Below are positions 2-15,184 of a stretch of DNA of 23,857 bases, one piece after another. Position 1 is the first letter of the stretch, and the number at the start of each line of letters is the position of its first letter. This DNA comes from a virus: positions 1 to 23,857 of the IMG/VR virus record IMGVR_UViG_3300006875_000167. One strand, written 5' to 3'. The notes under the pieces were generated by a model. That model did not search any database, had not been told where the DNA came from, and worked only from the letters and a program-made list of their open reading frames with translations. The translations under genes and the position numbers were made by a program.

Positions 2-742
2 AAAGGTGATATAGTAGATCCAGAAAGAAGAAAAGTTTTAGCCAAGATAGGCTCTGATGCGTGGGTTAATAAAGTAAAGTCTTGTTCTTTTGAAGAAAGA
101 AGAGAGTTATTAAAATCATTCACGACTGCGGGAAACAAAAAACAGGAAGAATTAAGATTAAATAGAACTCCAGAGGATTATCAAAGATTGTATCCTTTTG
201 CAAAAGGAAAGGCAGAATATGGAAACTGCGGTTTTTGCGATAAACAAATTATTATTTGGGTTGGAGGAAAACCTAGGCCGAAAATAAGATTTTGTTCTAA
301 AAAATGTAACAATGAGTATCAAAGAATTCATCCATACTTTACTCTTAAGAATACAGGAAAGCCATATCATTCAAATAAAATGAATTGTGAGTTTTTTCTC
401 AGATCCAGACTTGAGCTGTGGATGTCGGAACTACTTGATTATAGTAATCAAGTAACCTCTTGGTTCACATGCCCTTTTTATATAACTTATTTTTATGAAA
501 ATAAAAAAAGAAAATACTACCCAGATTTTTTGATTAATGAAAAATTTTTGATAGAATTAAAGTCAGGATATATTTATAATATGGATGTAAAAAAAACAGA
601 AATAAAATTAAAAACAGCAAATAAATATTGTCTTTCAAAAAATTTAATATTTAAATATTGGCAATTCAATGATCCAAATATGAGTAAAAATAAGTTTTCA
701 AAAGATGAAAGAGTAATCAATTTTATTGAGAATTTAAAATGA
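2..742 (+). CDS. PD-(D/E)XK homing endonuclease, 5' partial
   Basis: The frame is open from the window edge, so the start lies upstream; the first TTG/ATG-like codons inside it are not convincing starts. The visible 246 residues hold a basic N-terminal region, a likely zinc-binding knuckle (Cys76, Cys79, Cys98, Cys102, counted from the edge) and a nuclease core with YYPDF (Asp175) followed by IELK (Glu185, Lys187), the PD-(D/E)XK signature of Vsr/TnsA-like enzymes. A related family of free-standing homing endonucleases is known to sit between the two halves of phage genes fractured by split inteins. The stop overlaps the next gene's ATG (ATGA, 739-742), and that gene begins with a C-intein, so this is probably the endonuclease occupying a fractured polymerase gene. 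It would cut DNA to spread the arrangement. The fold is fairly secure; the homing role is inferred from context. Confidence 0.72.
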   Translation, partial: KGDIVDPERRKVLAKIGSDAWVNKVKSCSFEERRELLKSFTTAGNKKQEELRLNRTPEDYQRLYPFAKGKAEYGNCGFCDKQIIIWVGGKPRPKIRFCSKKCNNEYQRIHPYFTLKNTGKPYHSNKMNCEFFLRSRLELWMSELLDYSNQVTSWFTCPFYITYFYENKKRKYYPDFLINEKFLIELKSGYIYNMDVKKTEIKLKTANKYCLSKNLIFKYWQFNDPNMSKNKFSKDERVINFIENLK

Positions 743-873
743 TTTTTGACGATGAAATAATTTCAATAGAAAAACACGAAAAAGATGATTGTTATGATAT
801 ATCTCTTTTAATAGAAGAGCATTTATATATTAATGAACCCAATTTTATTGCACAAGATATAGTTGTTCACAAT
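739..873 (+). other. C-terminal half of a split intein (IntC)
   Basis: This encodes 45 residues ending in His-Asn, with Cys as the first extein residue at 874-876. It starts at its own ATG, has no upstream extein and carries no N-terminal splicing block, so it can only act in trans. Its length is typical of natural short C-inteins. The partner N-intein is not in this window. Confidence 0.85.
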
Positions 874-2403
874 TGCAAAATGCACGAGAGATATGTAGAA
901 CGAAAAAGAGGAAGGGAAGACTATGATCTTCATCCTATTTTAGAAAATATATTAAATCATACATATGGAGTTATCATATACCAAGAACAAGTAATGAAAA
1001 TATTAAATGTGGTTGGAAATATTCCTATGAGGGATGTAGAAACAGTAAGAAAAGCAATAAGCAAGAAAAAAGTAGAATCATTTATTAAGTATAAGGAGAT
1101 ATTTTTAAAGAATGGAAAAAATAATTTAAATTGCACAAAAGAAGAAATAGAAAATTTGTGGAGGCAGATGGAAAGTTTCGCCGAATATGGCTTCTGCAAG
1201 TCTCACGCAGTAGCTTACTCTCATATAAGCTCGAGACTTCTATACTTAAAATCTCACTTTCCACATGAATTTTATACAGCAATACTACAGTGCGAAGATG
1301 ATACAGACAAAATCAAAGAATATAAAAAAGAAATTAAAAATCATAATATAAAATTAAAAAAACTAGATATAAACAAATCTTCGGATAATTTTTCTCTAGT
1401 TGGAGACGAGATATACTTTGGATTTTCAAATGTCAAAGGCATAGGAAGTAAAGCAGCAGAAGAAATAATAAAACTGCAGCCATTTAATGGATTCATAGAT
1501 TTTCTTGAAAGATTTGGGACTGATGCGAGCGTGTTGAAGCCCATATTATCGTCTAGATGTTTTGCAGAAAATACCCCAGTAAACCTATTTAAGTTTGCAG
1601 AGTACTATAAAACCTTCACAAAGAAAAAACTAGACTCTAAACTGCGTTATCAAAAGAATAATAAAAAGAATAAAGATGAACTAGTAAGGCTGATAAGTTT
1701 GGCAGAAGATACAGATGAGATAAAAAATAAAATCAAGAATGGAGAATTATCTAAATTTGATTTTTCATTCAAAGATACTACATGCAAAGAAATTAAAGAA
1801 AGATATGAATCTATAATAGTGGAAGAAAAAAATGCATGGAAACAGATATGTAAGGTTTTAAACAAGATAAATTCAGCAAAAAAAAGATTCATAGAGAAAG
1901 AAAATTATGAAAAACCAAAATTAGAAGAATTTGATTTTGATTCATATAAAATTAACTCAAAAATAGAAAAAGAACTATCAGATCCTTACGAAGCAGAAAA
2001 AAAGACATATGGTTTTTGCTGGGAGTTCAGGATAGAAAAAAGCAAAGATTTTGTCGGAGGATTAACTTTTGATAAGCTCATGGATATTGAAGAAGAAGAT
2101 TCTTTACCAGTAGAGGTAGAAGTTATATCATTAAATAAAAGAAAAGGCAAAAGAACAGAATATTATCAAATAAAAGTAGAAGATTCTAACGGAGATGAAG
2201 AATCTGTTAATATCTGGAAAGATGATTATGAATTGTATAAAGATGAATTACAAGTTGGCAACTTTTTAAGAATGAGGCTTAGTCCTCCAACAAATGGATT
2301 TAAAACATACACTTTAGAAAGCATAGGCAAAAAAAATTACTACAGTAAGGTTAAAATAAATAAAAATGATGACTATAGAATAATTTTAATGGAAAAAAGC
2401 TAA
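739..2403 (+). CDS. dnaE: Split-intein C-half fused to C-terminal part of DNA polymerase III alpha
   Basis: Residues 1-45 are a C-intein: the block F-like segment with CYDI and the block G end IVVHN are followed by the +1 residue Cys46. From there the protein is replicative polymerase. YGVIIYQEQVM (76-86) and FAEYGFCKSHAVAY (147-160) are the conserved distal part of the PolIII alpha polymerase region, SNVKGIGSKAA (230-240) is the helix-hairpin-helix DNA-binding segment, and roughly 430-530 looks like the OB fold. Residues 280-420 are lysine/glutamate-rich and diverged. Everything N-terminal of the extein, including the catalytic aspartates, is missing. The mature subunit therefore needs trans-splicing to an N-intein partner encoded outside the window. 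The ATG is fixed by the ATGA overlap with the endonuclease, implying translational coupling. The split point differs from that of the cyanobacterial DnaE intein, which falls at FAEY/CF. Confidence 0.88.
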   Translation: MIFDDEIISIEKHEKDDCYDISLLIEEHLYINEPNFIAQDIVVHNCKMHERYVERKRGREDYDLHPILENILNHTYGVIIYQEQVMKILNVVGNIPMRDVETVRKAISKKKVESFIKYKEIFLKNGKNNLNCTKEEIENLWRQMESFAEYGFCKSHAVAYSHISSRLLYLKSHFPHEFYTAILQCEDDTDKIKEYKKEIKNHNIKLKKLDINKSSDNFSLVGDEIYFGFSNVKGIGSKAAEEIIKLQPFNGFIDFLERFGTDASVLKPILSSRCFAENTPVNLFKFAEYYKTFTKKKLDSKLRYQKNNKKNKDELVRLISLAEDTDEIKNKIKNGELSKFDFSFKDTTCKEIKERYESIIVEEKNAWKQICKVLNKINSAKKRFIEKENYEKPKLEEFDFDSYKINSKIEKELSDPYEAEKKTYGFCWEFRIEKSKDFVGGLTFDKLMDIEEEDSLPVEVEVISLNKRKGKRTEYYQIKVEDSNGDEESVNIWKDDYELYKDELQVGNFLRMRLSPPTNGFKTYTLESIGKKNYYSKVKINKNDDYRIILMEKS

Positions 2404-3052: not shown

Positions 3053-4150
3053 ATGAAGTTAATTTATAAAAAAAATAAAAATAATAAAACTATTAAAAAC
3101 TTTGTTTTTAAAAAACACATATTTAATAATTCTAATAAAAAAGAAAATTTAATTATAACAAACTTTAGTGAATTTGGTGTAGAAACTCTTGCCTGTCTTT
3201 ATTCTATTCCTTTATTATCAAAAATACATTCAAATTTTAAAACAATAGTAGTAGGTTGGAGTGGCAGAGAATATCTTTATAGACACATAGCCGATGAATT
3301 TTGGGAATTAGATGAGGAGTTTTACTATTTAAAAGATTACAGCAATGCCTTTAAGAATGATAGTAAAGATATAATAAAACTAGAGGAAGAATTAAAAAAA
3401 CTTGGAAAGTTAATACCAACATCATTTTTAGGAAATTTTTTTGTAGCCAAAATTTGTAAAAATTGTTTAAACGTTTGGATGGATGAAACTTTTGTATGTA
3501 AAAGTTGCAACAGTAAAAACATATCTTTACCTTTACTAGAAACACTAGACAAAACTATTGCAGTAGATGTACCTCTGCCGAAAGAAAGAGGCATCAAGGT
3601 TCCAGAAAATAGTGTGGCAATATTTGCCAGAAATAGAAAAACATACGGGAGAAATTTGCCTAAAGAATTTTATTTAAAATTAAATTCTTCTTTAAGAGAA
3701 AATGGATTTAATCCAATATATTTAGGAGAAAATTCATCTAGCTTGAACATGCCGGATTGTATTGATTTTTCAAGCATGCCTTGTGCAAAAGAATTAGATT
3801 TTACACTTGAAGTTTTATCAAAAGTTAAATTTTCAATACAATTTTGGACCGCTAGCACAAGGTTATCGGCAATTACAAAAACTCCATTTATATTGGTAGA
3901 AAGCCCAAATCAAGTTGCACATCAAACTCAAGAACTTCAAAGAATAGCACTAACTAGTGATTTTGATAAAAAAAAGATAATTGTTTGCCATTATGTGGAT
4001 TTTTTAAAAGAACAAGAAGAAGGTATAAATCTTATAAATCAGGCAATAAAAGAAATAAAAGAAAATAATTGGAATCATATAATAGGAATGGTAAAAGATA
4101 AAGAAATTTTACATTCTATTATAAAGAATAATAATTTAGAAAAGTGGTAA
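3053..4150 (+). CDS. GT-B glycosyltransferase-like protein (heptosyltransferase-type) with zinc-ribbon insertion
   Basis: About 365 residues. The C-terminal half resembles the nucleotide-sugar-binding domain of family 9 (ADP-heptose-type) glycosyltransferases: VAIFARNRKTYGRNLP starts a Rossmann-like domain, a 'lengthy-name-to-Leu-Gly-Glu' strand-loop (IYLGE) follows, and a conserved segment (FWTASTRLSAITKTPFILVE) ends the fold. The N-terminal half has ETLACLYSIPLL and VVGWSGREYL in GT-B positions. An unusual CxxC-x11-CxxC (CKNC...CKSC) sits in the middle and probably binds zinc. I chose ATG 3053 rather than the TTG at 3044. The gene is followed two bases later by a second protein of similar size and layout, so the pair probably acts on the same glycan or forms a heteromer. 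The family call is by motif impression, not alignment. Confidence 0.55.
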   Translation: MKLIYKKNKNNKTIKNFVFKKHIFNNSNKKENLIITNFSEFGVETLACLYSIPLLSKIHSNFKTIVVGWSGREYLYRHIADEFWELDEEFYYLKDYSNAFKNDSKDIIKLEEELKKLGKLIPTSFLGNFFVAKICKNCLNVWMDETFVCKSCNSKNISLPLLETLDKTIAVDVPLPKERGIKVPENSVAIFARNRKTYGRNLPKEFYLKLNSSLRENGFNPIYLGENSSSLNMPDCIDFSSMPCAKELDFTLEVLSKVKFSIQFWTASTRLSAITKTPFILVESPNQVAHQTQELQRIALTSDFDKKKIIVCHYVDFLKEQEEGINLINQAIKEIKENNWNHIIGMVKDKEILHSIIKNNNLEKW

Positions 4151-8039: not shown

Positions 8040-10627
8040 TTAATCATCTTTAAATTCTAATATCATGCTTCTTCCACCTCTGGATTCTGAGAGAAATCTA
8101 GAGAATAAAAGGTCTTCTTTTATGGGATCTACATCCGTTATGCCTAGACAATAACACACTAAACTTCCTACTGCGGAATTATGAACTAAAAAACTGCTAG
8201 TCAAGTAATTTGAATTATTTTTGACTTCAAAATCATAAACACGTTTAACATTTTTTAACTCACTAATTTTACGAACCTTCACCAAGAATCCACCATCCAC
8301 TTTTCTATAGGTATATCTTTTGCACGAAGGTTTTTCTGATAGTTCTTTTACAACAGGAATATTAACCTTATAGCAAAAATATTTTTGATTGTTTCTTTTA
8401 TCCAACCTATCCATGTAGTTGCACGAAGAAGGAACGCCCAAAGATAAAAGTAGGGTTCTTATCTGGGAAACTAAATTTAAAGAAACAGAATCAAAACTAA
8501 TTTTATTTTCAGATAAATGACCATCTGCCATAAAATAACCCTTTATAAAGGCCCACTTAAAAGTATCAGGTAGAGAGAAAACTATTTCTGGGATGTGCTT
8601 GGTTTGTGATGTAAAATGGTAGCTGTTATACATCTCTCTAAATAAGTGGTATAAAAATTTGCTTTTTATAGATAATTGTTTAAGCTTTTTCTTTTTATGC
8701 TTAAATATAGAATATTCTACACACAAATTGGTCGCAAATTTTGTGACCAATTTTAGTCCTACGTGGTCATCTTCGTGAAAAGCAAAACCTATTTCACCTC
8801 TACCATCAGATCTTATCCAGCCATCTCCTGCAAACAACCCGACAATAGTCCAAAAGTCTTTATTGTTAATATCAATAAATCTTTTACATTTTTTATTTCT
8901 TTTAATTGTTTTGGTCAAAGGATTGATATAATCTTGAAAAACAAAATCTTTATCGAACAATAAATTTTCTCCATTGCAATATTTGGAGAGATCTATATCT
9001 GGTAATTCAGAATTATTTAGTTTTAGTTGCGGAATAAACACCCAATCTCCAACACTTATTTGATCTGCTCTTATCCAGTCAAGTGTTCCGGATGGCTCCT
9101 CAATAGATTTTCTAGATTTTTTTGTGGATTCGGCCCAATTTTTATAGTTTTCAACTTTCTTTGATTTTTCAACCAAAACCTTATGATCTCTTGTTAATGA
9201 CACACCTCTATTATCTCCATAATAACTATAGATGGTCAACAAGTCTTCGTTGCATGGATATTCAAAAGTATTTAATACTTCTTGAAAACTACCATCTCTG
9301 GTGCAGACTTTGTCACCAACTTTAATTTCAGAAATAGGCTTATAAAAACCATTCTCAATTAAAATTAGTGTATTACCTTCTAGGCACCCTCTACCGGGGC
9401 CAACAGCCTCGCTACCATCTCCTCCTCCAAGAATCTGGGGACAAATTCTTCTTGCCTCATCTGTCATCATTTTTTGTATTAAAAAATAACTACTAAAACC
9501 TTTTCTCGTAATAAGACTATACTCTTCTTTTATCCTATCTAAGTATCTGCTATTTTTTGGTAAGCCTCTAGCTATAAATCCTAATTTAATAGATTCTTTT
9601 AATTTTTCATCACAATCATCTACAATAGGAAGTTTTAAACTTCTATCAAATTCTACACCCTTAGCTCTCTCGCAAACTTTTACAGTAGTTCTTTTGGCTT
9701 CACAAAAAATTTCATAAGGAATTATTTCAGAGTAGTCTTTGAGCCACTTTTCGTTTAATTCCTCCTCACTTTTCATCCAAAGATTTTCGTCCTGAAGCTC
9801 GAAAAAATCCTTCATTGCATCTTTTTCTTTTTCCTCTTTTATCATTTTAAGAGTTCTTTTGGTCTGTATCATGAGCATAAGTCTTTGATGATAGCTATCT
9901 TCTTTATTACAATAATGAACATCCTGACTTAGTATTATTGGGAGTTTGTATTTTTCATGAGCTTTAATTATGAACTTATTATATTCAAATTGTTTTTTGA
10001 AATCTAAAAGCATAATTTCCAAATAATAATTTTCCTTGCCGAACATTGAAACATATTTTTCAATCACCTTATATCCAGCTTCTTCTCCACCTTTATCAAA
10101 AGCTCTACCCACCTCGCTATTATAACAGCAACTTGTAAATATAATTCCTTCTTTGTGATTCATTAATTGTTCATAATTTACTCTTGGCTTTCTATAAAAA
10201 CCCCTAGTCCATCCCCAGCTGGTTAACTTAACTAAATTCTTATAACCGGTGAGACTAGTTGCTATGGCAAGCAAATGAGGGCTTGCTCTAAAACTATCGG
10301 TTTCATTTGGATCAAGATCCTTAGAATATTTAGATAATTCTTCTTTATCTGTATAGCCTATTTGTAGATCATTGACATATAGCTCCACTCCAAATATGGG
10401 ACTTAATTTATCTTTGTCTTTATGTTTACTGCATATTTTTTCACATATTTTAATTTGTCTGGGTATGGCACCCATCATGCCGTGATCTGTTATTGTGAAA
10501 AACTTTTGATTTATTTCAATGGCTCTATTTGCATATTCCTCTACACTTCCAAAACCGTCGAGGAGTGAATAATCGCTGTCAACTAATGAAGGTGGAGATG
10601 TTCGAAACCGACAATCTCCACCTTCAT
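8040..10627 (-). CDS. dnaE: DNA polymerase III alpha, N-terminal (PHP) fragment with LAGLIDADG intein; frame broken near its start
   Basis: The main frame runs uninterrupted from upstream of its first ATG (10478) to the stop at 8040. The PHP domain is clear: YSLLDGFGS, ITDHGMMGA and FGVELYVND, then LSQDVHYC. After it come ITRKGFSSYFLI and AVGPGRG, the intein, and SAVGSLVCYCLGITDVDP and LLFSRFLSE, which form the start of the polymerase palm. The protein then ends with RGGRSMILEFKDD, before the PDxDxDF motif that carries the catalytic aspartates. The expected beginning, MKVEIVGFEHLHLH, is present at 10627-10586 behind a strong AAAGGAG site. It is followed at once by TAG and is out of frame with SDYSLLDG by eight extra bases. 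The rest of the polymerase is the + strand fragment at 739-2403 and a middle piece not seen here. It could be a live split gene using recoding, a pseudogene, or a sequence error. Confidence 0.85.
8178..9386 (-). mobile_element. LAGLIDADG intein inside the PolIII alpha fragment
   Basis: This 403-residue intein is inserted exactly between GPGRG and SAVGS of the polymerase. It begins with Cys (CLEGNTLILIENGF, block A), has TRDH as the block B Thr-x-x-His, two dodecapeptide motifs of a homing endonuclease (TIVGLFAGDGWI and FIKGYFMADGHL) and ends with VYDFEV, then SSFLVHN, with Ser as +1. All residues needed for cis-splicing are visible, and both endonuclease motifs keep their acidic residue, so it looks fully active. 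It would excise itself from the protein and could home into intein-free alleles of the same conserved site. Confidence 0.92.
10578..10585 (-). other. 8-base frame-breaking interruption in the PHP motif, starting with TAG
   Basis: On the - strand, codons for HLHLH (ending CAT at 10588-10586) are followed by TAGTTGAC, then AGC GAT TAT TCA, giving SDYSLLDG. Removing the eight bases restores HLHLHSDYSLLDG, the usual PHP-domain start. The extra stretch contains an in-frame stop and shifts the frame. A -1 shift at CAT would also reach the second frame, inserting Leu-Val-Asp, but no slippery heptamer is present. Confidence 0.75.
10586..10627 (-). repeat. 14-bp perfect hairpin exactly spanning a 14-codon start ORF
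   Basis: ATGAAGGTGGAGAT pairs perfectly with ATCTCCACCTTCAT around a 14-base loop that contains TTCGAA. On the - strand the hairpin begins with the ATG behind the AAAGGAG site and ends with the last sense codon before TAG. In mRNA the start codon would be locked in the stem, with the ribosome-binding site just outside it. Confidence 0.85.
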
Positions 10628-10641
10628 ATCTCCTTTGTTTT

Positions 10642-11808
10642 TCATTTTAAATTCACGTTCTTTTTTTTAAGCCAATCTAGAAACTCTAGTTTATCATATT
10701 TTGAGTTTTTGATCAAATTTTCCTTGGCAGAAATTGGCCGTAAATTTTCAAGACAATTAATTAATGAAAAATCATCTATTCCATGGTCGATGAAAGCTTT
10801 TATTGGAAAAATATGATCTATATGCCAGGGTTTATCTTTTATAAAATCATAACCAGGATATTGTGATATATGTTTTTGTAAATCCAAATAATCATATCCC
10901 AAAAGGGCAGCGGTTTTTTTATTTTTTACTCTTCCAGTAACATTCATTGTCATTTTAATAAGTTTGTATGACTTTTGTCTAAAAATAAGTTTTTCTCTAT
11001 GTTTATCTCTGTCTTTTTGCCATCCGTAGTTATTTTCACCGGATATTTTTTTAATCCCACACTTCTTACATAATTTCCCTTTTGAAAAATTATTCCATGT
11101 TGTTATTGATTTTTCTCCACAAGCACAAATATATCTCATATGTTTATGTGAATTAACATAAACATCGATAAGGGTGCATTTCGAATCTATAAATTTTTTT
11201 TCAACAGAGGCTGGGTCAAACTTTTTTAGTATCATTTTTTTAATTCCGCAATCTTTACATCTACTACCATTTTTAAAACAAGAAAAACTTATTTTAGATT
11301 TATTTCCACAAGAACAAATATAGTCATAGAGAGTAAAATTATTCTTATACTCTTTGCTTAAAAAAACACAATTATTTTTTTCAAAAAAATCTTTAACATA
11401 ATTTATATCATATTTATTTCTTAAATTATTTTTAATTTTATTTTTATTATTTCTCCTCAAACAATTAGAACATCCTTCGCTTTTGTTTATGTTTTTTAAT
11501 TGACATGTTCTTTTTTTTCCACATTTGCACATACAAGCAACAACATGGTGATTATTAATGTATTTTGAAGAAATGAATACAAACCCTTTGGATTCAACTA
11601 TTTCTTTGATTTTTAGTTCAGAGTATTTTCTTGCTCCTTTTCTACCACATCCACATCTTTTGCCATTTTTAAAATTATTTAAATTAATATATGAAACATT
11701 GTTGCAAGAGCATAAATATTTCATTTTAACATGGGCATTAACATATTTTTTTTCAAGTAATTTGCACCCATGATCATTGAAATATTTTTTTACCTCTAAT
11801 AATTTCAT
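10642..11808 (-). CDS. HNH homing endonuclease with four repeated Cys-rich modules
   Basis: About 388 residues from ATG 11808 (a TTG one codon earlier is less likely). The N-terminal two thirds hold four units of 50-55 residues, at about 5-57, 67-118, 137-189 and 202-252. Each has the pattern Tyr-x-Asn, then CxCG-like, then a short basic stretch and a CxC or CxxC, and probably folds as a zinc-binding DNA-recognition module. The HNH nuclease follows: WHIDHIFPIKAF (329-340) supplies the His-Asp-His and LENLRPISAKEN (354-365) the Asn residues. Free-standing HNH enzymes of this kind home into conserved phage genes. Its TGA overlaps an ATG (10645-10643) that is in frame with the PolIII alpha start at 10627, placing it directly before the polymerase fragment that it may target or protect. 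No ribosome-binding site is visible. Confidence 0.85.
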   Translation of the reverse strand: MKLLEVKKYFNDHGCKLLEKKYVNAHVKMKYLCSCNNVSYINLNNFKNGKRCGCGRKGARKYSELKIKEIVESKGFVFISSKYINNHHVVACMCKCGKKRTCQLKNINKSEGCSNCLRRNNKNKIKNNLRNKYDINYVKDFFEKNNCVFLSKEYKNNFTLYDYICSCGNKSKISFSCFKNGSRCKDCGIKKMILKKFDPASVEKKFIDSKCTLIDVYVNSHKHMRYICACGEKSITTWNNFSKGKLCKKCGIKKISGENNYGWQKDRDKHREKLIFRQKSYKLIKMTMNVTGRVKNKKTAALLGYDYLDLQKHISQYPGYDFIKDKPWHIDHIFPIKAFIDHGIDDFSLINCLENLRPISAKENLIKNSKYDKLEFLDWLKKKNVNLK

Positions 11809-11847
11809 CAATATAATTTAGTTTGTCTTTTTTTTATTTATTTTTTG

Positions 11848-14027: not shown

Positions 14028-14651
14028 ATGGGATGTACAACACCAAATTACGATTACACTATTAAAAAAAATGATACTAAACCATTTATTAAATACACAA
14101 TAGAAAGTTGCGATGACATAGACTTAACAGAGGAAAATTTAATAATAACAGCTAGTATGTGGGCAGACTCTAATTTAAAAAATAAAATAACTACCACAGA
14201 TAATTACTTTGAATTAAAAAATAATTACAACTTAGAAGCAATAAAAGAAGAAGATTATATATTAATTAAAAAGTTTAATTCTTCAGAATATATGTTGGTA
14301 GAATCAATAGATGAAACAAAAATAAATATTCAAAGAGCACAATTAGACTCAAATGCTCAAAATTGGAGCAAAAATAACGAAATAAAAATAATAAAATTTT
14401 ACGAAGTTGAAGCTGAGGTTGATATAGAGTATAATACTTCTTTGAACGTTAATGGAGAAGAAGAAACTTCGGCCTCATCTCAAAACTTAGTATATAAGTG
14501 GAGAGATGAAGATACGTCTTCTCCCGGAGTGTTCTTTTTAGAATTCAAAGTTTCTAAAATAGACGGTGATCAAGTTTTATGGACAAAAAAATTACCATCC
14601 CACAAAGAAGGAATTAGTATTAAAATTACTAATGACAGCCTAGAAGCATGA
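14028..14651 (+). CDS. Probable virion protein with Ig-like/BppU-like N-domain pattern
   Basis: 207 residues. The first 85 and last 70 residues are beta-rich with a pattern seen in baseplate upper proteins: PFIKYTIESCDDIDLTEENL at the start and YKWRDEDTSSPGVFFLEFKV near the end, where W, PG and FxxEFxV recur in that family. The middle (IKEEDYILIKKFNSSEYMLVE) also looks like strand-turn-strand. No signal peptide is visible. A baseplate or tail accessory role is plausible but rests on pattern only. Its TGA overlaps the IF3 ATG (14648-14651), so IF3 is probably translated by coupling from this gene, an odd pairing of a structural-type and a translation gene. Confidence 0.5.
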   Translation: MGCTTPNYDYTIKKNDTKPFIKYTIESCDDIDLTEENLIITASMWADSNLKNKITTTDNYFELKNNYNLEAIKEEDYILIKKFNSSEYMLVESIDETKINIQRAQLDSNAQNWSKNNEIKIIKFYEVEAEVDIEYNTSLNVNGEEETSASSQNLVYKWRDEDTSSPGVFFLEFKVSKIDGDQVLWTKKLPSHKEGISIKITNDSLEA

Positions 14652-15184
14652 CAGTTATGACCAAATTTTCTAATAATTCAAACAATAATAAACACAGGAT
14701 AAACTACCAAATAAGGTGTCCAAAAGTAAGATTAATAATAAATAACAGACAAATGGGAATAGTTCCCATAGAGGATGCCAGAAGATTTGCTCAAGATAAT
14801 CAATTAGATTTAGTTGAAATTGCACCAAACGCACATCCCCCAGTGTGTCACGTTATAGATTATAAAAAATACTTATATGAACAAAAAATAAAAGAAAAAA
14901 ACAATAAAAATAAAAAAGAAGAATCAAAAGAAATAAGATTTAAATCATGTATAGAAGAAAATGATTTGAATGTTAAAATTAAACAAGCTAGGGGCTTTTT
15001 AGAAAAAGGCAAAAAACTACAATTAACATTAAGGTTTAAATCATATAGAGATCAAACACATAGAGAAAAAGGTTTTGAAATAATTAAAAAATTTATATTA
15101 GCCCTAGATGATGTTGGTCAAGTTGAAAAACAACCATTTAACAATGGCGATAGAATCATATGTAAATTGATTCCAAAAAAATAA
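14648..15184 (+). CDS. infC: Translation initiation factor IF-3 (phage-encoded)
   Basis: The protein has 178 residues, the length of bacterial IF3. The N-domain runs from NNKHRINYQIR (13-23) through MGIVPIEDARRFAQ (36-49) to LDLVEIAPNAHPPVC (53-67) and IDYKKYLYEQK (70-80), all hallmark IF3 segments. A Lys/Asn-rich linker (81-92) leads to the C-domain with KEIRFKSCIEENDL (94-107), ARGFLEKGKK (114-123) and LTLRF (126-130). IF3 keeps ribosomal subunits apart and proofreads the start codon and initiator tRNA; the C-domain does most of this. The RGRE box of bacterial IF3 appears as KSYRD, a change in the 30S-binding surface. Bacterial infC often uses a rare start codon for self-control, whereas here it is ATG in an ATGA overlap. 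Confidence 0.95.
   Translation: MTVMTKFSNNSNNNKHRINYQIRCPKVRLIINNRQMGIVPIEDARRFAQDNQLDLVEIAPNAHPPVCHVIDYKKYLYEQKIKEKNNKNKKEESKEIRFKSCIEENDLNVKIKQARGFLEKGKKLQLTLRFKSYRDQTHREKGFEIIKKFILALDDVGQVEKQPFNNGDRIICKLIPKK

Follow-up and report, generated by a model that had tools for sequence, protein, structure and literature searches.

In 2009, Dassa et al. reportedly described phage genes that are fractured and carry split inteins and Vsr-like homing endonucleases. To our knowledge, what is known of efficient programmed bypassing in bacteria and phages comes essentially from gene 60 of T4, and its origin is debated. T4 gene 60 has a 50-nucleotide (nt) bypass and the adjacent HNH gene mobA (PMC5009743, PMC2988022); its 5′ stem is thought to pull the mRNA, and the element was proposed to derive from a degenerate intron (PMC5009743). 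Collaborative homing has also been described (PMC6083498). As for divided polymerases, working complexes are known, as in gp43A/B of phage 25 (PMC2988022), and a split PolIII alpha was predicted in group 2.2 jumbo phages (PMC7824862). Here we describe the PolIII alpha genes on IMG/VR virus record IMGVR_UViG_3300006875_000167, a fragment of 23857 bases from an uncultured large phage that was analysed whole (the window; base 1 is the end of the record). As read from the sequence, several interruptions are found in this one enzyme, namely a split intein, a division into two genes, a cis-intein in the gene for the N part (the N gene), and a hairpin, stop codon and gap at the start of the N gene (hairpin-stop-gap); trans-splicing, cutting, homing and bypass are all inferred here from the genes.

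An earlier description made without database searches (the sequence-only reading) had pictured the polymerase gene as fractured by a split intein. The split intein held; the picture was incomplete, as the PolIII alpha of the window phage is divided into three pieces or more. The N gene, not remarked in that reading, was already a gene apart (10645-8040, minus strand) and has its own frame break and cis-intein. PolIII alpha is a single protein of 1183 aa in LR756511 (595 kb). Members of the IMG/VR clade have two cistrons, an N gene of ~460 aa, which ends near GGRSMxLEF, and a palm/finger gene of ~880 aa, usually with 1-7 kb between them; the N gene is its own cistron in all close relatives having both genes. 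The GS motif (GPGRGS) and the catalytic PDxDxD are on different polypeptides in the clade, and no intein was found at the break between the N gene and the palm gene there. The N-gene product (PHP domain and GS motif of the palm) would dock non-covalently on the palm. The N gene and its upstream neighbour in the window are organized as follows; ORF denotes open reading frame.

10642-11811, minus strand: free-standing HNH endonuclease ORF directly upstream, overlapping the N-gene start by ATGA; matches phrog_559 (E 4e-21); homologues at the same place
10583-10645, minus strand: first reading-frame segment of the N gene, MKNKGDMKVEIVGFEHLHLH, then a TAG stop
10614-10627, minus strand: 5′ arm of a perfect 14-bp hairpin (ATGAAGGTGGAGAT); the hairpin segment folds at z = -5.9
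10586-10599, minus strand: 3′ arm of the hairpin (ATCTCCACCTTCAT), coding HLHLH up to the presumed take-off codon CAT
10578-10585, minus strand: TAG stop and remainder of the 8-nt gap (TAGTTGAC), presumably skipped by the ribosome
8040-10577, minus strand: second reading-frame segment of the N gene, SDYSLLDG onwards, with the PHP domain and the first part of the palm up to GGRSMILEFKDD
8178-9386, minus strand: cis-intein of 403 aa with Hint and LAGLIDADG, in the polymerase active-site motif at GPGRG↓C...HN↓S (arrows mark splice junctions here and below)

The break in the N gene sits just past the HLHLH metal motif, and the conserved protein is taken up again in a different frame, 8 nt beyond the His codon, with SDYSLLDG; in context, the gap reads CAT TAGTTGAC AGC. 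The resumed frame contains no ATG, GTG or TTG from its upstream stop to DHGM. We consider it likely that ribosomes read the N gene by hopping over the gap. The ribosome would translate up to FEHLHLH and then meet the TAG, peptidyl-tRNA(His) would release CAU, the refolding 14-bp hairpin would drag the mRNA, and decoding would restart 8 nt downstream at SDYSLLDG. Two features of the window gene weigh against a hop: the take-off and landing codons, CAU and GAC, agree in part only and are not identical, and the nascent peptide before the gap is only 20 codons long.

To find relatives, viral contigs were scanned, the queries being the C part and the N gene and alignments of these; relatives are given L numbers where they have to be told apart. 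The hairpin-stop-gap was common to about 30 related contigs, and 34 relatives were uninterrupted. The distance from HLHxH to LDG was 15 nt in 32 distinct sequences and 20-23 or 55-62 nt in others; in this count there were outliers of 14 and 18 nt (one each), and four sequences were not scoreable. In the short class (20 scored sequences and L241), the stop always stood right after HLHLH, and the 3′ arm of the preceding stem coded HLHLH. Net gaps at this one point in relatives were 5, 6, 7 and 8 nt. In the long class, the break came one or two codons later, with a gap of 40-47 nt and a gap hairpin of -21 to -30 kcal/mol in addition to the 5′ stem; a stem-loop was present inside the gap in all six long-class relatives, and the 8-nt gap of the window is without one. 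Three further sequences read FSVL-UAA-LDG, with identical or synonymous Leu codons flanking the stop and a longer-range 5′ stem. Most short-class genes had a triplet before the point of resumption that ends in AY, matching the take-off CAY at two positions, and in the long class the GAY take-off faced GAA or AAC, with two of three positions matching. When 2.9 million viral contigs were scanned by pattern, the short element turned up in 28, of which 26 were already-known N-gene contigs and the two new ones carried the same gene. No second copy of the N gene was found on 12 records, all of which are fragments.

The same region held other interruptions. In L043 and L048, group I introns (RF00028, 91 and 102 bits) lay between FSL and LDG; transfer-messenger RNA (tmRNA) genes were also noted on these contigs (L043, 11616-11974; L048, 14631-15006). 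The GTDB contig L215 (RXKI01000131.1, a Neisseriaceae metagenome-assembled genome; around 3840-4000) read HLHL-TGA-CTA-HTDFSLLDG, with a stop-hop-like CTT TGA CTA beside a 9-bp stem; its match breaks off at GPGRGS, suggesting an intein at that position. Two successive interruptions were seen in L232 (3003-3160), a short stop-gap after HLHLH and then a hairpin insert after TAA within TDFSLL, and, read in this way, its N gene would seem to require two consecutive hops.

The 5′ segment folded at -18.3 kcal/mol or lower in each of the 26 short- and long-class genes, and at -12.7 kcal/mol or weaker in 34 of 34 uninterrupted genes. By class, the minimum free energy of the 5′ stem was -18 to -25 kcal/mol (short) and -20 to -29 kcal/mol (long), with p values of 1e-9 and 1e-4 against uninterrupted genes. 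The stem showed covariation (16 double-change cells; score 0.254 vs 0.122 in shuffled alignments; 0 of 500 shuffles), and none was seen in the uninterrupted control. Changes in the arm coding HLHLH were synonymous except in L201, and the partner arm swapped K/Q/R and E/K; the HLHLH arm is therefore constrained by the protein and the partner arm by pairing. After the gap, the third codon position was the most variable (entropy 0.78/0.62/1.48 by position). Assembly error at the break was ruled out, as the same structure occurred in the 28 contigs found by pattern and in the GTDB variant.

Ordinary programmed frameshifting or stop readthrough is an unlikely alternative for the N gene. A stop codon does stand at the break in the short and stop-hop-like classes, but gaps of 5, 6, 7 and 8 nt would require -1 frameshifting, +1 frameshifting and readthrough together, and the long-class gaps have hairpins of their own. 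The stop codon at the break varied among relatives (TAG, TGA, TAA), which codon reassignment does not explain; reassignment was itself ruled out, since all three stops occur and most gaps are out of frame. A fixed frameshift or readthrough is insufficient because net gaps of 5, 6, 7, 8 and 40-47 nt share one place, and a ribosome hop fits the varied gaps because it is independent of frame.

It is similarly doubtful that the short ORF of 13 to 20 codons is a leader peptide, with the polymerase starting at the ATG of DHGM and its first PHP motifs lost. An in-frame ATG is present 84 nt after LDG in many sequences. However, HLHLH is held by synonymous changes while the other arm alters residues to keep pairing, the 28 post-gap codons ahead of the DHGM ATG are under purifying selection (median ratio of nonsynonymous to synonymous divergence, dN/dS, 0.18, with a wide spread), and nearly all uninterrupted relatives retain the full motif. 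Less probable still is a minimal RNA-level excision of the gap by a degenerate intron or by endonuclease/ligase splicing: the true group I introns of two relatives lie only a few codons away, but gaps of 5-8 nt are too small for self-splicing introns, and an Rfam search of the window gave no match and no intron.

With the ribosome hop as the preferred reading of the N gene, the upstream HNH gene is probably the motor that spreads the element. An HNH gene of the window type stood directly upstream in 14 of 28 interrupted genes (intron-bearing ones counted) and in 2 of 34 uninterrupted genes (Fisher p 1e-4); Pfam gave nothing for the window HNH ORF at E 0.1. On the N-gene tree, the interrupted state changed 18 times, 13 of them forced. 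L198, with the element and the HNH gene, and L148, with neither, were mostly 83-98% identical downstream, apart from one 100-nt stretch at 65%; their hairpin segments matched at 27 of 42 positions, and their upstream sequences were unrelated. This pattern fits replacement by a cassette of HNH gene, hairpin and gap together. The HNH neighbour and the group I introns at the same place would, by analogy, fit collaborative homing and an origin from a degenerate intron. On balance, the N-gene start is likely to be a hotspot for a mobile family of candidate ribosome-bypass elements with short, long and stop-hop-like (CUU UAA CUA; CUU UGA CUA) forms, spread by HNH endonucleases and competing with group I introns.

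The C part of the polymerase is encoded on the plus strand by ORF 739-2403 (554 aa), at the beginning of the window.

2-742, plus strand: putative homing endonuclease ORF of the PD-(D/E)XK type (TnsA / I-Bth0305I-like), 246 aa, 5′ end open; E..PDF..ELK invariant in four homologues
739-873, plus strand: C-intein half of a split mini-intein, 45 aa, ending in VVHN and overlapping the nuclease ORF by ATGA; homologues 63-78% identical in L005/L006, L016/L017 and L057
874-2403, plus strand: C-extein of PolIII alpha with a +1 Cys, comprising the rest of the finger domain, HhH and the C-terminal domains

As the sequence-only reading had claimed, the C part opens with a C-intein of 45 residues and follows, with an ATGA overlap, a TnsA-type nuclease gene. 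The ORF starts with MIFDDEIISIEKHEKDDCYDISLLIEEHLYINEPNFIAQDIVVHN↓CKMHERYVERKRG, and the splice residues are a penultimate His, a terminal Asn and a +1 Cys (VVHN↓C at 862-876). The C-extein matched the finger domain of PolIII alpha (PF17657, E 4e-20) and HHH_6. Between the window and L005, the C-intein was 78% and the exteins 60% identical, and NG86 dN/dS was 0.23/1.84 for the nuclease and 0.14/1.32 for the C-intein; both are therefore still under selection. The same ATGA overlap joins each endonuclease ORF of the window to the next polymerase gene (739-742 and 10642-10645), which suggests translational coupling.

The upstream ORF with an N-intein on the palm, which the sequence-only reading had predicted, was present in three further lineages that carry the complete layout at the same site (L005=L006, L016=L017 and L057). 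The order in all three is the palm gene with the N-intein, the nuclease as a separate ORF (~335 aa), and the C-intein/finger gene. The N-intein, of 68-73 aa and with an S-x-x-H block, closes the palm gene after an extein that reads RPG(x)xx↓C; the three junctions are YRPGPLN↓CLQKDVKV, FRPGCIK↓CLQKDSFV and NRPGPMQ↓CVKESTNV. These pieces matched Intein_splicing at the expected place with E 3e-4 to 5e-3, below the gathering cut-off. Relatives without the intein are continuous at the junction, with YRPGPLN-MKMHERY, or GPL(N/G)-MxM in L002/L004, L003, L054 and others; the junction is exact, since intact relatives read YRPGPLN-MKMHERY. The +1 residue was Cys in intein carriers and another residue in most intact relatives. 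The uninterrupted C gene of L055 (=L032, around 7000) has a Cys at this position (GPLNCRMHERY), possibly a scar of intein loss.

The split-intein explanation of the window polymerase is thus very likely correct, and the relatives support the sequence-only reading on this point. The palm gene of the window phage would end in an N-intein, as seen in three relatives, and the two halves would come together and, by trans-splicing, link ...YRPGPLN, or its counterpart, with CKMHERY to give a normal palm-finger polypeptide. Some points weigh against this explanation. The N-intein of the window phage falls off the contig, being out of view because the record ends at base 1; the C-intein gave no relevant match to PDB sequences, and the N-intein gave only a weak match to gp41-1 (E 0.06).

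The missing N half would also suit a decayed remnant, in which splicing of the C part to a partner has ceased. This is very improbable, as the splice residues are all intact, dN/dS is far below 1, both features stand in the same layout in four lineages, and a polymerase without its palm would not work. That errors of assembly or sequencing broke up a normal cis-intein with its endonuclease inside is scarcely credible, and is refuted for the relatives. Although endonucleases often sit between the same two blocks in large inteins, the N-intein, the nuclease (~1 kb) and the C-intein are separate ORFs with their own starts in three independent lineages (L005, L016, L057), and L057 has two more ORFs between the nuclease and the C-intein. 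These two, a 177-aa ORF and a DNA-methylase-like ORF, were located in L057 5550-6855.

To judge from its sequence and predicted fold, the nuclease that separates the intein halves is probably a homing endonuclease, cutting palm/finger genes that lack the intein; we propose that the whole cassette would therefore be copied in. The window copy is short of ~89 N-terminal residues relative to complete relatives, removed by the contig end. It matched TnsA-like N (PF08722, above the gathering cut-off) and DUF7487, and the catalytic positions E227, PD264 and E274-x-K276 were unchanged across four homologues. The structural model (pLDDT, the predicted local distance difference test, 71 overall and ~77-93 in the C-terminal core) matched TnsA (E 5.7e-4) and the homing endonuclease I-Bth0305I (probability 0.95). 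A tblastn search of 50,697 named phage records gave nothing for the nuclease, and the window had no match to named phages at the DNA level.

On the extein tree, four carriers required four changes, all forced by well-supported branches, and carriers were interleaved with uninterrupted kin (L006 with L004, L057 with L054, and L136 (=L016) with L056); the element therefore moves or is lost frequently. For homing, this patchy spread of carriers speaks at most indirectly. On the carrier records, all of which are fragments, the palm/C gene had no second copy. A second intein site of the clade, EYGFN(K/R)↓..SHA, was fractured in L007 and occupied in cis, without interruption, in L016 and L069. The fracture in L007 (11500-13130), at EYGFNR↓C..SHAV, is a second, independent break of the C gene, with a free-standing LAGLIDADG ORF between the halves. 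The cis mini-intein behind EYGFNK in L016 (16317-16984) and L017 (16179-16846) seems to start with Thr in place of Cys or Ser. Elsewhere in the window, translation initiation factor IF-3 is encoded at 14648-15184 on the plus strand, with a similar ORF in L002.

With the split intein, fractured genes come to include an essential replication enzyme, a new site and a new subfamily of nucleases, and three full native pairs of N- and C-inteins become available as trans-splicing tools. The N-gene element is the weightier of the two, as its origin, mobility and mechanism are directly testable, because genes that carry it, sister genes that lack it, three gap classes, natural stop-hop-like codons and true group I introns all occur at one place. 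If the bypass is real, T4 gene 60 would be one member of a class of mobile elements that persist in essential genes by translational skipping; bypass elements would then stand beside introns, skipped in RNA, and inteins, skipped in protein, and one enzyme in this phage clade would carry all three kinds.

Compared with the known systems, the split-intein locus resembles the fractured genes reportedly described by Dassa et al. in having an extein divided over two genes, an N- and a C-intein half and, in between, a free-standing nuclease related to PD-(D/E)XK enzymes; it differs in that the host gene is PolIII alpha, the site is GPLN↓C in the finger domain, and the polymerase of the window phage is further divided upstream without an intein. 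The split intein of cyanobacterial DnaE likewise rejoins PolIII alpha by a naturally split mini-intein with a +1 Cys. Its junction (AEY↓CFN), which we take to be the position FAEY↓GF(N/C)KSHA, is not the window site; the latter lies 104 residues further upstream in the alignment, on the N-terminal side as the sequence-only reading had held, and since the site differs, the fracture looks like an independent event. The phage halves, moreover, are neighbours with a nuclease between them, as seen in the relatives, and are patchily inherited. The nuclease resembles I-Bth0305I (3r3p) and TnsA (1f1z) in its predicted core fold and its conserved acidic/Lys pattern, and differs from both in extra N-terminal C..C..H..H and Zn-ribbon-like regions. 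The PolIII alpha of group 2.2 jumbo phages (Iyer et al. 2021, PMC7824862) also has its catalytic domain spread over two distant genes; that enzyme is minimal and stands beside a family B polymerase, whereas the pieces in the window include PHP, finger, HhH and C-terminal domains.

The N-gene element is like T4 gene 60 in the stop directly 3′ of the take-off codon, the 5′ stem-loop (found in every interrupted class), the out-of-frame resumption of a conserved protein, resumption independent of gap length, the adjacent HNH endonuclease and the suspected link to a degenerate group I intron. It differs in its gap of 8 nt (5-8 or 40-47 nt in relatives), in lying in PolIII alpha with the hairpin at the very start of the gene, and in take-off and landing codons that match partly, identical or synonymous Leu codons being found only in the stop-hop-like relatives.
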